DNA of 64,000 bases, from contig NZ_JACBZT010000001.1 in assembly GCF_013408985.1 (NCBI RefSeq), positions 5,287,197 through 5,351,196 on the forward strand. The letters run 5' to 3'. The position numbers and the translations under genes are program-made. Below the pieces are notes generated by a model. It had not been told where the DNA came from. It saw only the letters and a list, made by a program, of their open reading frames with translations, and searched no databases. The number at the start of each line of letters is the position of its first letter. Within the stretch, counting starts at the first letter, position 1. The DNA comes from Petropleomorpha daqingensis (lineage in GTDB: Bacteria > Actinomycetota > Actinomycetes > Mycobacteriales > Geodermatophilaceae). Positions 41,884 to 47,421 of the stretch are shown here, one piece after another.

Positions 41884-44130
41884 ATGGCGCGCATGCGCGG
41901 CCTGCGCGGCACGGTGCCGGGCTCGTGGGGACGCCGGTGGCCCGTGGTGCTCGCCGCCGGCCTGCTCGTGCTCGGGATCATCGGGACGGCGGTGCGGCTG
42001 GACGCCCCCGCCGACGGCAGTTCGCTGCCGTTCGGGGCGTCGACGTGGCAGACCGGGGCCGTCGTCGTCGACGTCCCCTCCCCCACGGATGGCGGGTTGC
42101 GCACCGGGGACGAGGTGCGCGCGATCGCCGGAGCCCGCTTCGCCGATGGCCTGGGGCAGGTGCCCGAACCGGCGCCGGGCGACGTGCTGCGCTACGACCT
42201 CGCCGGCGACGCGGCCCGCTCGGTGCGGGTGGACCGCCCGGCGATCGGCCCGCTGGTCGCGGCCGGCTGGGGCGACCTCGTCTTCGTCCTGGCCCTCGGC
42301 GGCCTGGCGGTCGCGCTCTGGCTGCGGCGCCCCGACGAGCCGGCCACCGCCCCCCTGCTGGTGGCCGCCGCAGGACTGTTCGGCAGCACCATGACCGTCG
42401 TCGCCGGCCTGCCCGCCCTCGCCCTGGCCACCGGCGGACCACCGCTGTGGCTGTACTACGCGAACACCATCGGCGCGTACTCGATCGCCTGGGGCGCAGT
42501 GCTCGCGATGACGTTCCTCGTCGCGCCCGGCCATCCCTGGCTGACCCGCCGGCCAGGGCGGGTGCTCGGCCTGGCGTACGCCGGGCCGCCGGCTGCCGTG
42601 GCGGTGTGGGCGGTCGCGCTGCTGCTCGCGGTCGACGACCCGATCCGGCGGCTGGGCCTGCTCGGCGCGGGGCAGACCGCGGTGACCGCCGCGTCGCTCC
42701 TCGTCGGGATCGTCGCGGGGGTCGTGGCCTACCGCGGTGCCGCCGATCCGCTCACCCGGGCCCGCCTGCGCTGGATCGCCGGCGGTGGGGCCGTCGCCAC
42801 GCTGACCGGCATCGTCGGGTGGAGCCTGCCGGAGCTGCTCACCGGCAGCCATCCCCTCCCACCCGGCGCGTACGGCCTGTCCGGGCTGCCGTTCGTCGTC
42901 GGCCTCGCCGTCGCGCTGCGCCGGCACCGGCTCTTCGACCTGGAACGGCTGGCCAACCGGTCGCTGGTGTACGCCGTCGTCCTCGCCGTCCTCGTCGGGG
43001 TGTACGTGCTCGCCGTGGCACTGCTCGCCTCCGGGCTGCGGCTCTCCGACGGGGTGGCCGCCGGGCTGGCCGCCGCGCTGGCCGCGCTCGCCCTCGCCCC
43101 GCTGCGGGCCGGCGCCCGGACGGCGGTGAACCGGCTGATGTACGGCCAGCGCGACGACCCGGCGCGCGTGCTGGCCGCGCTCGGCGGCCGCCTGGAGGCG
43201 GCGCTGCGCCCGGGCGACGTCGCCGGCACCGTCGTCGACACCGTGACCCGCTCGCTGCGCGTTCCGTTCGCCGCGCTCGACCTCGCCGAGGGCTCCGGGT
43301 TCCGCACGCTCGCTGCCACCGGGCGTCCCGCCGGCGCCGTCCACGAGGAGCCGCTGGTGCACCTCGGTGAGACCGTCGGCCGGCTGCGGGTCTCCGGTCG
43401 CGGACCCGAGGATCCCCTCGACCCGGTCGACCTGGCGCTGCTGCGCTCGCTCGCCGCGCAGGTGGGACCGGCGGTGCTGGCGGTGCGGCTGCACGAGGAG
43501 GTGCTCCGGTCGCGCACCGCGATCGTGGCGTCGCGGGAGGACGAGCGCCGGCGGCTGCGCCGCGAGCTGCACGACGGGATCGGACCGTCGCTGGCCGCCA
43601 TCGCCCTGAAGACGGGCCTGGCCGAGCGCCAGGTGCCGCAGGGACCGGCGCGCGCCCTGCTCGGGCAGATCAGCGGCGAGGTGCAGAACAGCATCGCCGA
43701 CGTGCGGCGGGTGGTGGACACCCTGCGACCGCCGGCGCTCGACGAGCTGGGCCTCGTCGGCGCGCTGACCGCCCGGGCGGCCGCGCTGTCCGGCGACCTG
43801 GAGATCGCGGTGACCGGGCCGGCGGACCGGCCGGTCCTGCCGGCCGGGGTGGAGACGGCGGCCTACCGGATCGCGGTCGAGGCGATGACCAACGCGGCCC
43901 GGCACAGCGGCGGCTCCCGCTGCACGGTCACCGTCACCGTGGACGAGGACCGGGTCGAGGTCGGCGTCGTCGACGACGGCAGCGGCCTGCCCGGCGTCCG
44001 GCGGCCGGGCGTGGGCCTGCGGTCGATGAGCGAGCGCGCCGCGGAGATCGGGGGCACGTGCGAGGTCAGCAGCCCGGACGGGGCCGGCACGTCGGTGCAC
44101 GCCCTCCTGCCCCTCGGAGCCCCGGCGTGA
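41884..44130 (+). CDS. Sensor histidine kinase (HisKA_3 type) with PDZ-like and membrane parts
   Basis: A 748-residue sensor kinase. A PDZ-like segment at about 55-90 (VVVDVPSPTDGGLRTGDEVRAIAG) lies outside the first membrane helix, followed by about eight hydrophobic segments, a GAF-like region near 420-540, and then the dimerisation/phosphoacceptor domain EDERRRLRRELHDGIGPSLAAI, with H563. The HATPase domain ends DDGSGLPGVRRPGVGLRSMSERA. The response regulator gene overlaps its stop (GTGA), so the pair is one system. It heads a unit leading to a multicopper oxidase. Confidence 0.92.
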   Translation: MARMRGLRGTVPGSWGRRWPVVLAAGLLVLGIIGTAVRLDAPADGSSLPFGASTWQTGAVVVDVPSPTDGGLRTGDEVRAIAGARFADGLGQVPEPAPGDVLRYDLAGDAARSVRVDRPAIGPLVAAGWGDLVFVLALGGLAVALWLRRPDEPATAPLLVAAAGLFGSTMTVVAGLPALALATGGPPLWLYYANTIGAYSIAWGAVLAMTFLVAPGHPWLTRRPGRVLGLAYAGPPAAVAVWAVALLLAVDDPIRRLGLLGAGQTAVTAASLLVGIVAGVVAYRGAADPLTRARLRWIAGGGAVATLTGIVGWSLPELLTGSHPLPPGAYGLSGLPFVVGLAVALRRHRLFDLERLANRSLVYAVVLAVLVGVYVLAVALLASGLRLSDGVAAGLAAALAALALAPLRAGARTAVNRLMYGQRDDPARVLAALGGRLEAALRPGDVAGTVVDTVTRSLRVPFAALDLAEGSGFRTLAATGRPAGAVHEEPLVHLGETVGRLRVSGRGPEDPLDPVDLALLRSLAAQVGPAVLAVRLHEEVLRSRTAIVASREDERRRLRRELHDGIGPSLAAIALKTGLAERQVPQGPARALLGQISGEVQNSIADVRRVVDTLRPPALDELGLVGALTARAAALSGDLEIAVTGPADRPVLPAGVETAAYRIAVEAMTNAARHSGGSRCTVTVTVDEDRVEVGVVDDGSGLPGVRRPGVGLRSMSERAAEIGGTCEVSSPDGAGTSVHALLPLGAPA

Positions 44131-44774
44131 TCCGGGTCGTGCTGGCCGACGACCACCCGGTCTTCGCCGAGGGGTTGAGGACCGTCCTGGAGGCCGAGAC
44201 CGACGTGCGGGTCGTCGCGGTGGCCGGCACCGGCCGGGCGGCGGTCGAGGCGGCCACCGCCGAGGTCCCGGAGGTCGCCGTCCTGGACATCGCGATGCCC
44301 GACGGCGACGGGTTGTGGGCGACCGCGCGGCTGCGCGAAGCGGGGCTGCCCACCCGGGTGCTGGTCCTGACCATGTCCGACGACGCGGAGAGCGTGTTCG
44401 CCGCGCTGCGGGCCGGCGCCGCCGGCTACACCGTCAAGGGCGCCGGCCCCGACGAGGTGGTGGCTGCGGTCCGGGCCGTCGCGAGGGGCGAGGTCCTGTT
44501 CGGCCAGGGCGTGGCCGAGCGGATGCTCCGGCACTTCACCCGGGCCGCGACGACCGGACCGTTCCCGCAGCTGACCGAGCGGGAGCACGAGGTGCTCGAC
44601 CTGCTGGCCCGGGGCCTCGACAACCCGGCGGTCGCCCGCCGGCTGGCGCTGTCGGGCAAGACCGTGCGCAACCACGTCTCCAACATCATCTCCAAGCTGC
44701 AGGTGGTCGACCGGACGGCGGCCATCATCCGGGCGCGGGACGCCGGGCTGGGCGGGGTCCCCGGCCGCTCCTGA
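44127..44774 (+). CDS. NarL/FixJ-type response regulator
   Basis: A 215-residue response regulator. The receiver domain (about 1-120) has the phosphoacceptor D54 in AVLDIAMPDGDGL, acidic residues in ADDHPVF near the start and conserved K in AAGYTVKGAG. The LuxR-type HTH (about 148-210: LTEREHEVLDLLARGLDNPAVARRLALSGKTVRNHVSNIISKLQ) binds DNA. It is the cognate regulator of the upstream kinase, whose stop overlaps its GTG start. Its target is unknown; the downstream membrane/oxidase genes are the obvious candidate. Confidence 0.95.
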   Translation: MIRVVLADDHPVFAEGLRTVLEAETDVRVVAVAGTGRAAVEAATAEVPEVAVLDIAMPDGDGLWATARLREAGLPTRVLVLTMSDDAESVFAALRAGAAGYTVKGAGPDEVVAAVRAVARGEVLFGQGVAERMLRHFTRAATTGPFPQLTEREHEVLDLLARGLDNPAVARRLALSGKTVRNHVSNIISKLQVVDRTAAIIRARDAGLGGVPGRS

Positions 44775-44828
44775 GAATCCCGGGCTCCCGCGGGACATCG
44801 TCCCGTGACGGCGGGACGGCGCCGCCCC

Positions 44829-44834
44829 GACGCT
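44829..44834 (+). promoter_or_regulatory. -10 element before membrane protein gene
   Basis: GACGCT lies 6 bases before the ATG at 44841, a possible second start point for the membrane protein/oxidase part of the operon. Confidence 0.35.
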
Positions 44835-44840
44835 GCCCGC

Positions 44841-45488
44841 ATGAGCACGACGACCACCGCCCCGTTCCGGGGGGCCACCGCTGACAGCCGGGCGCGAGCG
44901 GCCGCTCTGCTCAGCGGCGCAACCGGCGTCGCGGCGAACGTGCTGCTCGTGCTGTTGTTCGCCCTCGCCGAGCCGTTCTCCGGCGCCTCGAACGCGGCGT
45001 CCTGGCTCGGACCGGCCGACGACTGGCTCATGGTGCCGCAGTTCGCCGCGCTGATCCCGGTGGCGCTCGCCCTCGGCCGGCGGTTGCCGGCCACGCGGTG
45101 GGCCCGGGCGCTGAGCGCCGCCGGCGCCGTGGCCATGGCCGTGATCGTGCTGGCGCAGCTGGCGCTGGTCCTCGGTCTGCTCGCCTTCGAGGTCCAGGTC
45201 GGCGTCGTCGTGGGCGCGATCGTCGTCCTCTACCTCTGGCTGCTCGGCACGAGCCTCGTCGGCCACCGCACGGGCCTGCTGCCCCGCCCGGCCACGCGGG
45301 CCGGCGTCCTGCTCGGGACGTCGCTCCCGGTCGGGGCGGCCCTCGTCGCGGCCGGCCTGCTGGTCCCCGGCCCCGCCCGGTGGGCCCTCTGGGCTCCCGG
45401 GTTCGCCCTCGGCGCCGCCGGCTGGCTGACGCTGCCCGTCTTCCCCCTCCTGGTCGCACGGTCCGTCCTTCGGAAGGAGCACCCATGA
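44841..45488 (+). CDS. Hypothetical six-TM membrane protein
   Basis: A 215-residue protein with about six hydrophobic segments and little else that is recognisable: after a polar MSTTTTAPFRGATADSRARA, segments such as LLVLLFALAEPFSG and VVVGAIVVLYLWLLGTSL follow. It overlaps the next gene's start (ATGA), so the two are coupled. I do not recognise a family. Position between the response regulator and the multicopper oxidase suggests a role in that system. Confidence 0.75.
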   Translation: MSTTTTAPFRGATADSRARAAALLSGATGVAANVLLVLLFALAEPFSGASNAASWLGPADDWLMVPQFAALIPVALALGRRLPATRWARALSAAGAVAMAVIVLAQLALVLGLLAFEVQVGVVVGAIVVLYLWLLGTSLVGHRTGLLPRPATRAGVLLGTSLPVGAALVAAGLLVPGPARWALWAPGFALGAAGWLTLPVFPLLVARSVLRKEHP

Positions 45489-45955
45489 GAACCACCTACC
45501 GGGTCCTGGCCTACCTGATCGCGCTGGAGGTGGTCGTCCAGGCGGGCGCCCTGGCGCTGGGGGTCGCCGGTCTCGTGCACTGGGTCGACGGCGGCGGCGT
45601 GCTCGACAGCGCTGTGGTCGAGGGGGACAGCGACCCGTTCCCCGAGGTCGTGGGCCTCATCGTGCACGGGATCAACGGCGGGATCGTCGTCCCGGTGCTG
45701 GCCCTGCTGCTGCTGATCGCGTCGTTCTTCGCCCGCGTCCCCCGCGGGATCCCGTGGGCGCTGGCCGTGCTGGGGTTCGTCGTCGTCCAGGTGATGCTCG
45801 GCTACTCGCTCGCGGACGTGCCCGCGCTGGGCGCCGTGCACGGCATCAACGCGCTGCTGCTGTTCACCGCGGCGCTGATCACCGCTCGCCGCGCGCGGGT
45901 GCGCCGGCCGGCGGCCGAGGACGTCGCCCCGGCGACGGCGGACACGCCGGTCTGA
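45485..45955 (+). CDS. Four-TM membrane protein with repeated HGIN motifs
   Basis: A 156-residue protein with four predicted membrane helices, possibly in the DUF6220 family. Two helices begin with nearly identical motifs, HGINGG at residue 61 and HGINAL at residue 119, and a third histidine is at 32. Paired in-membrane histidines are how b-type cytochromes hold heme, so a heme- or quinone-linked role is possible, but this is inference from the residue pattern alone. It is translationally coupled upstream and followed by the multicopper oxidase after 2 bases. Confidence 0.75.
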   Translation: MRTTYRVLAYLIALEVVVQAGALALGVAGLVHWVDGGGVLDSAVVEGDSDPFPEVVGLIVHGINGGIVVPVLALLLLIASFFARVPRGIPWALAVLGFVVVQVMLGYSLADVPALGAVHGINALLLFTAALITARRARVRRPAAEDVAPATADTPV

Positions 45956-45957
45956 CC

Positions 45958-47421
45958 GTGCGCCGGCGCCTGCGGGTCCTGCTCTCGGCCGGCGCCGCGC
46001 TCGCCGTCCTCGGCCCGCTCGGGTGGTTCTGGCAGGACAGCCTCCTGCCGGGCACCTACTCGGTGATGGACATGGGGTACGTGGACACCGGCGGGGGCGC
46101 TGCCGAGAGCCATGCGCACGGGGACGGCGGGATCGACCTGCGCACCCTCACCGCCGACCCCGACCGGCCGGCGGACGTCTCGGTGACGCTGATCGCCCGG
46201 CAGGAGCGGTTCCGGCTCGCCTCGGGTCGCACGGTCGCCGGCTACACCCTGAACGGGAGCTCTCCCGGGCCGACGATCCGGGCGACCGTCGGCGACCTGG
46301 TGGAGGTCCGGCTGGTCAACATCTCGGTGCCGGACGGCGTCACGATCCACTGGCACGGCGTCGACGTTCCGGGAGCCGAGGACGGCGTCGCCGGCGTCAC
46401 CCAGGACGCCGTCGCCCCGGGAGCGGAGTACGTGTACCGCTTCGTGGCCGACCGCGCGGGCACGTACTGGTACCACTCGCACCAGCGCTCTGCCGAGCAG
46501 GTCGCCGGCGGGCTGCTCGGCGCCCTGGTCGTCGACCCGGCGCCCGTCGCCGATCCGGCCGCCGACGTCCTGGCGCTGGTGCACCACTACGGCGGGGTCG
46601 CGACGGTGAACGGGCGGGAGGGCGACGTGCTCGTGCCGGCGGTGCCGGGGAGCACGGTCCGGGTACGGGTGATCGACACCGACAACGGCCCGATGTGGGT
46701 CTGGGTCGGCGGCGGCCGGTACCAGGTGGCGGCGGTCGACGGCACCGACGTGCACGAGCCGGGCCAGGTCTCCGACCGCGCGCTGCTCGTCCCGGCCGGC
46801 GGGCGGGCGGACGTGCTGGTGACCCTGCCGGACGACGGGTCGCCGCTGCGCGTGCACCTCGGCGGGCGGACCGGGATCGTCCTGAGCTCCTCGGGCCGGG
46901 CGCCGGCGGTGGTGGCCCGGCCGGCGCAGGCGCTCGACCTGCTGTCCTACGGCGCCCCGGCGGCACTCGGGTTCGACCCGGACGCACCGGACCGGCGGTT
47001 CGACTACGACATCGGGCGCCGTCCCGGCTTCCTCGACGGGCGCCCCGGGCTGTGGTGGACGGTCAACGGGCACGCCTACCCGGACGTCCCGATGTTCGTG
47101 GTCAGGGAGGGCGACGTCGTCCTCGTGCGGATCGTCAACGCCAGCGGCGAACGGCACCCGATGCACCTGCACGGTCACCACGCCGTCGTCCTGTCCCGCG
47201 ACGGGGTCCGGGCCACGGGCAGCCCGTGGTGGGTGGACTCGCTGGACGTGGCGGACGGCGAGACCTACGAGATCGCGTTCGTGGCGGACAACCCGGGCGT
47301 GTGGGTCGACCACTGCCACAACCTGCCGCACGCCGAGCAGGGCCTGATCGTGCACCTGGCCTACGCCGGGGTCAGCACCCCGTTCGTGATCGGCGGCCCG
47401 GCGGGCAACGTGCCGGAGTGA
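45958..47421 (+). CDS. Multicopper oxidase
   Basis: A 487-residue exported multicopper oxidase (laccase/CueO-like). An N-terminal membrane-type signal (LRVLLSAGAALAVLGPLGWFW) is followed by cupredoxin domains with all copper motifs: HWHG (H131, H133), HSH (H173, H175), HPMHLHGH (H400, H403, H405), and HCHNLPHAEQGL with T1 ligands H452/C453/H454/H458 and axial Leu463 instead of Met, as in high-potential laccases. It oxidises small substrates or metal ions while reducing O2. The GTG start is 2 bases after the previous stop. It closes the operon that begins with the kinase. Confidence 0.95.
   Translation: MRRRLRVLLSAGAALAVLGPLGWFWQDSLLPGTYSVMDMGYVDTGGGAAESHAHGDGGIDLRTLTADPDRPADVSVTLIARQERFRLASGRTVAGYTLNGSSPGPTIRATVGDLVEVRLVNISVPDGVTIHWHGVDVPGAEDGVAGVTQDAVAPGAEYVYRFVADRAGTYWYHSHQRSAEQVAGGLLGALVVDPAPVADPAADVLALVHHYGGVATVNGREGDVLVPAVPGSTVRVRVIDTDNGPMWVWVGGGRYQVAAVDGTDVHEPGQVSDRALLVPAGGRADVLVTLPDDGSPLRVHLGGRTGIVLSSSGRAPAVVARPAQALDLLSYGAPAALGFDPDAPDRRFDYDIGRRPGFLDGRPGLWWTVNGHAYPDVPMFVVREGDVVLVRIVNASGERHPMHLHGHHAVVLSRDGVRATGSPWWVDSLDVADGETYEIAFVADNPGVWVDHCHNLPHAEQGLIVHLAYAGVSTPFVIGGPAGNVPE

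Follow-up and report, generated by a model that had tools for sequence, protein, structure and literature searches.

What does a multicopper oxidase (MCO) have to do with the small histidine-bearing membrane protein encoded directly upstream of it, and does the neighbouring two-component system belong with the two? These questions are raised by a five-gene locus of the actinomycete Petropleomorpha daqingensis (Geodermatophilaceae), which lies in a window of 64,000 nucleotides, the whole stretch of DNA that was analysed. All five genes foreseen in the original prediction are present on the forward strand, with the expected overlaps and gaps (coordinates are those of the window):

41884..44130, + strand: sensor histidine kinase, 748 aa; the precise start codon is uncertain
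44127..44774, + strand: NarL/LuxR-type response regulator, 215 aa; GTG start, 4-nt overlap with the kinase gene
44792..44818, + strand: predicted regulator-binding site, 27 bp, GGGACATCGTCCCGTGACGGCGGGACG, inside the 66-bp gap between the regulator gene and the third gene
44841..45488, + strand: third gene, a 215-aa protein with several transmembrane (TM) helices and no family; 66-nt gap after the regulator gene
45485..45955, + strand: 4-TM DUF6220-like protein, predicted bis-His b-haem protein; 4-nt overlap with the third gene
45665..45667, + strand: codon of H61 (TM2), predicted haem ligand; invariant in 28/28 sequences, aligns with a ligand His of CtaA
45839..45841, + strand: codon of H119 (TM4), predicted haem ligand; invariant in 28/28 sequences, aligns with a ligand His of CtaA
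45958..47421, + strand: membrane-anchored MCO, 487 aa; GTG start, 2-nt gap after the 4-TM gene

The pair across genomes

Searches for the MCO in 112 genomes of the same family, 296 genomes of the same class and a scan of GTDB contigs identified a group of enzymes about 54–69% identical to that of the window. At every locus with a called MCO of this group (46/46, counting that of the window), the MCO gene is immediately preceded, in the same orientation, by a 4-TM gene of the same family, and the surroundings of the pair mostly vary from locus to locus; gene calls in the relatives were made with a small coding-score finder, and their start codons may be off. The core of the locus is a two-gene unit, formed from the 4-TM gene and the MCO gene. 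The conserved neighbourhood originally envisaged thus holds for this pair and not for the full five-gene arrangement, which was rejected as the conserved block, as orthologous kinases are found at five loci only and several other loci carry different kinase–regulator types. Of the 51 DUF6220 matches listed in the 296 genomes, 35 are no more than about 2 kb from an MCO of this kind (coordinates matched manually).

In a tree of 106 MCOs, obtained by a short search and with SH-aLRT support only, 45 MCOs of the pair group form one branch (SH-aLRT 99). The window MCO branches with Streptosporangiaceae and a few others (SH-aLRT 97), and not with the copies from its own family (L060–L063), a placement which suggests that the operon may have been transferred horizontally. 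Only a single distant MCO relative was seen on a plasmid. In a second group of relatives (loci L052–L058 and L118), the MCO carries extra N-terminal TM helices and its gene likewise directly follows a 4-TM gene, and at L059 (1441-3564, minus strand) a natural single open frame joins DUF6220 to a membrane-domain MCO, the fusion seeming by eye to be without TM4 and the second predicted haem-ligand His. The window's genome has one copy of the pair-type MCO; a second DUF6220 match in that genome, outside the window (G000:C1:1679801-1679968), has no such MCO beside it. At L064 and L065 the 4-TM gene is kept and the MCO frame is broken, by decay or sequencing error. A literature search on DUF6220 returned no paper naming the family, and one for the DUF6220–MCO pair returned no title recognised as describing it (titles only).

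Pairing of this kind fits any dedicated partner, such as a maturation factor. On that explanation the 4-TM protein would load the MCO with metal, for example as an assembly helper or a haem-based reductase of Cu(II), and the MCO would in turn oxidise external substrates such as Cu(I) or phenols. Obligate pairing suits a helper equally with an electron donor, and the kinship to CtaA/Cox15 described below is to an oxidase-assembly family. However, the copper ligands around the HCH motif persist in relatives that lack the 4-TM gene (L048–L051 and many Bacillota), so such MCOs do not generally need the 4-TM protein, and no copper-handling genes are conspicuous among the neighbours, which were grouped by clustering and mostly lack annotation. 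A maturation role is, on balance, improbable.

The gene in third position differs among loci. In the window its product is a membrane protein, as had been claimed, with five TM helices by hydropathy scan where six had been counted; it matched no family in the domain search, and distant homologues (38–43%) occur in two of 108 same-family genomes. Elsewhere, the position is filled by a 4-TM protein with no similarity detected to that of the window (L104), a relative of this 4-TM protein (L085), or two other genes (L071 and L073). Kinship between the third genes of the window and L104 was rejected, with no similarity by BLAST.

The multicopper oxidase

The MCO consists of one N-terminal TM helix followed by a complete four-copper oxidase. 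Its domains (PF07732, PF07731 and PF00394) score over the Pfam cutoffs, and all four copper motifs are complete, comprising ten His (131, 133, 173, 175, 400, 403, 405, 452, 454 and 458) and Cys453, every one of them invariant in 15 aligned sequences. Judged by sequence, the enzyme should consume O2. The axial residue of its type 1 (T1) copper is Leu463, and among the 45 rows of the pair group with a readable motif this position is Leu in 41, Met in three and Phe in one, two of the rows (L069 and L082) looking like the same record. Outside the pair group most relatives have Met, with Leu also at L048–L051, L110 and L154. A higher T1 potential in the window MCO is plausible by analogy, because a Leu to Met change lowers that of Botrytis laccase by 140 mV (PMC4220974).

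Laccase-like MCOs, the nearest in the PDB being 6vox and 4f7k, share these copper ligands and domains, whereas the TM anchor, the fixed 4-TM partner and the axial Leu set the window MCO apart from them. MCOs are commonly laccases or cuprous oxidases, and CopA, laccase and CueO models all match the MCO domains, as would be expected were this an ordinary laccase or copper-detoxification enzyme, with the 4-TM protein merely its anchor or a bystander and the kinase sensing copper or oxidants. Membership of the CueO and CopA copper-resistance oxidases was nevertheless rejected on NCBIfam scores far below the cutoffs (130 against 479 bits for CopA, 88 against 525 bits for CueO). The MCO also carries a TM anchor of its own, and a mere anchoring role would hardly account for the two invariant His and two invariant Gln within the 4-TM bundle. 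This explanation is regarded as unlikely.

Some MCO relatives without the 4-TM gene have other membrane or redox features. At L048–L051, the protein encoded directly upstream ends in a cupredoxin-like Cys/His/Met arrangement (by eye); Pfam recognised none of the three tested, and the protein is perhaps an alternative electron partner. At L102–L109, L111 and L112 (Paenibacillus, Brevibacillus and Micromonosporaceae), the MCO has an N-terminal membrane domain of 4–6 TM helices, unnamed by Pfam in the two scanned (L102 and L112), and no 4-TM gene was found by profile.

The 4-TM protein and its predicted haem site

Against Pfam DUF6220 (PF19728), the window 4-TM protein scores 23.7 bits (E 6e-5), below the cutoff of 29.8, and pair-type 4-TM proteins match the family in 28/28 cases at E up to 1, the best at 8e-13. 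On these profile matches, the protein is a diverged relative of DUF6220. An AF2 model gives a confident four-helix bundle (pLDDT 92.5, pTM 0.83), and both sequence profile and model suggest that the protein resembles one half of the haem A synthase CtaA/Cox15 (PF02628; PDB 6A2J). A profile of the 4-TM family scored 26.5 against the second half of CtaA (14 sequences), compared with a maximum of 8.2 among 61 control families of other membrane proteins from these loci, shallow and mostly single sequences or pairs, and with 5.4 for the reversed alignment. Pfam COX15-CtaA is matched weakly by 17 of the 28 4-TM proteins (best 2e-4), the window protein itself scoring 9.1 bits against PF02628, below the cutoff of 29.9. 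Among the Foldseek matches listed for the model, 6a2j has the highest probability (0.89; E-value 1.1), and VIA aligned the model with the 6a2j C bundle at Z 8.2, with unrelated generic helical bundles ranking above it. Helical bundles readily match one another. A sequence search for solved structures of the 4-TM family returned nothing at E 10.

Both HGIN motifs noted at the outset were found, at H61 and H119. These residues lie on helices 55–83 and 113–136 of the model, both align with CtaA His, and, together with Q19, G65, P70 and Q102, they are invariant in 28 aligned 4-TM proteins. Each bundle of CtaA reportedly binds haem through His on its second and fourth helices (PMC12808453), and haem b is located in the C bundle (PMC7327177). 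The 4-TM protein therefore shares with CtaA/Cox15 a four-helix bundle with His on the second and fourth helix, but has four TM helices, not eight, always adjoins an MCO, and lacks the catalytic Glu, the position three residues before the first His being F, L, H, I or A in the 28 sequences. As this Glu is absent, haem A synthase activity is not expected of the protein. With the ligand His pair kept and the Glu missing, a bis-His b-haem held by H61 and H119 is likely, and would lie near the outer membrane face, where both residues are placed by the positive-inside rule (by eye). The suggestion that a His-bearing 4-TM protein passes electrons fits this CtaA-like family, its invariant predicted ligand pair and its obligate pairing with an MCO.

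An outward-facing b-haem and an MCO would also suit a metal-redox pair, the 4-TM haem protein reducing Fe(III) or Cu(II) outside the cell and the MCO re-oxidising it, in the manner of uptake by a ferric reductase and a ferroxidase. VIA does list cytochrome b561 (4o6y) for the 4-TM model, at a Z of 8.2 that is below the level informative for bundles, but cytochrome b561 is absent from the Pfam matches of the 4-TM proteins, and such a cycle appears very unlikely.

Proposed two-component control and electron route

The kinase and regulator are of the NarL type: HisKA_3 and HATPase_c were found in the former (GAF_2 is weak and below cutoff), and Response_reg (REC) and GerE (LuxR/NarL type) in the latter. 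From its N-terminus, the kinase is ordered as TM1, a short extracytoplasmic PDZ-like motif, several TM helices, a GAF-like region, HisKA_3 and HATPase_c. The PDZ-like segment originally proposed is a conserved motif, but a classical PDZ domain is not supported: no Pfam PDZ model matches the window protein, one kinase orthologue reaches PDZ_2 at E 0.024, below cutoff, and fold prediction of the segment gave a low-confidence model (pLDDT 49).

Orthologues of the kinase in Nonomuraea soli (L085) and Planotetraspora (L104), at 58–60%, and at L071 and L073, at 38–39%, all lie upstream of a 4-TM–MCO pair, and the regulators of L085 and L104 share 65–67% identity with that of the window. Full-length kinases ranking next in the class sample (33%) are away from the loci listed with a pair-type MCO. 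With 24 HisKA_3 genes in the 5.38 Mb of the window's genome, chance alone would place a kinase beside the pair at a few percent of loci; a kinase of this cluster stands at ten of the 46, several of these being close kin. Different HisKA_3-like kinases and regulators, facing away, are found at L076, L100, L121 and L151, and another regulator type at L077–L079. The kinase–regulator pair is orthologous at only five loci, and at those it belongs to the 4-TM–MCO module.

Between regulator and third gene, the window and L104 have in common GGGAC-N3-GTCCC followed by GTGACG-N-CGGGACG, with a degenerate copy of the GGGAC/GTCCC site at the same place in L085; this candidate site is conserved in Streptosporangiaceae. 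With up to 3 mismatches allowed, the window's copy is the only one in its genome; the backwards control and the shuffled window each gave 0 matches. The half-sites are those of DosR/DevR from Mycobacterium tuberculosis, but the spacer in the window and L104 is 3 bases, not the 4 of the DosR-type palindrome GGGAC-N4-GTCCC, and a third half-site is present. DosR contacts DNA through K179, K182 and N183 (PMC5999986), which KTVRN in the regulator's recognition helix (KTVRNHVS) matches, Arg being tolerated at K182 (PMC5999986); among PDB regulators, VraR and NarL are closer to the window regulator than DosR. Binding of the regulator at 44792..44818 is predicted. Together, the orthologous kinase–regulator pairs at five loci and the conserved gap site support the proposed link between the two-component system and the oxidase genes.

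The computed results comprise the gene pairing, the family relationship, the complete copper sites, the orthologous operon, and the conservation of both the ligands and the gap site. The reading preferred here, which is tentative and to our minds a little short of an even chance, is that of a membrane oxidase under regulation, whose cytochrome b-like 4-TM protein passes membrane electrons to the MCO; for this we infer haem binding, the direction of electron flow, quinol as donor, regulator binding and a signal. A membrane donor, most simply menaquinol, would reduce the single b-haem held between H61 and H119 at the outer face of this small cytochrome b-like protein, and the haem would reduce the T1 copper of the anchored, extracytoplasmic MCO, whose trinuclear site would reduce O2 to water. 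The kinase–regulator pair would act through the GGGAC/GTCCC site to switch on the three genes that follow it, from the third gene to the MCO gene. A broader proposal, which we consider doubtful, is that DUF6220–MCO may be a new respiratory quinol oxidase, unrelated to the haem-copper, bd and alternative oxidases, in which a one-haem cytochrome b works with an MCO reducing O2 outside the cell; it would be widespread in Actinomycetota and, at this locus, governed by a two-component system of its own.

A function is thus proposed for the uncharacterised family DUF6220, tied to one clade of membrane MCOs, and the conserved gap site offers a direct handle for finding the signal. If the predicted haem protein does feed the MCO, the pair would constitute a compact O2-consuming route in actinomycetes, outside the known terminal oxidases.
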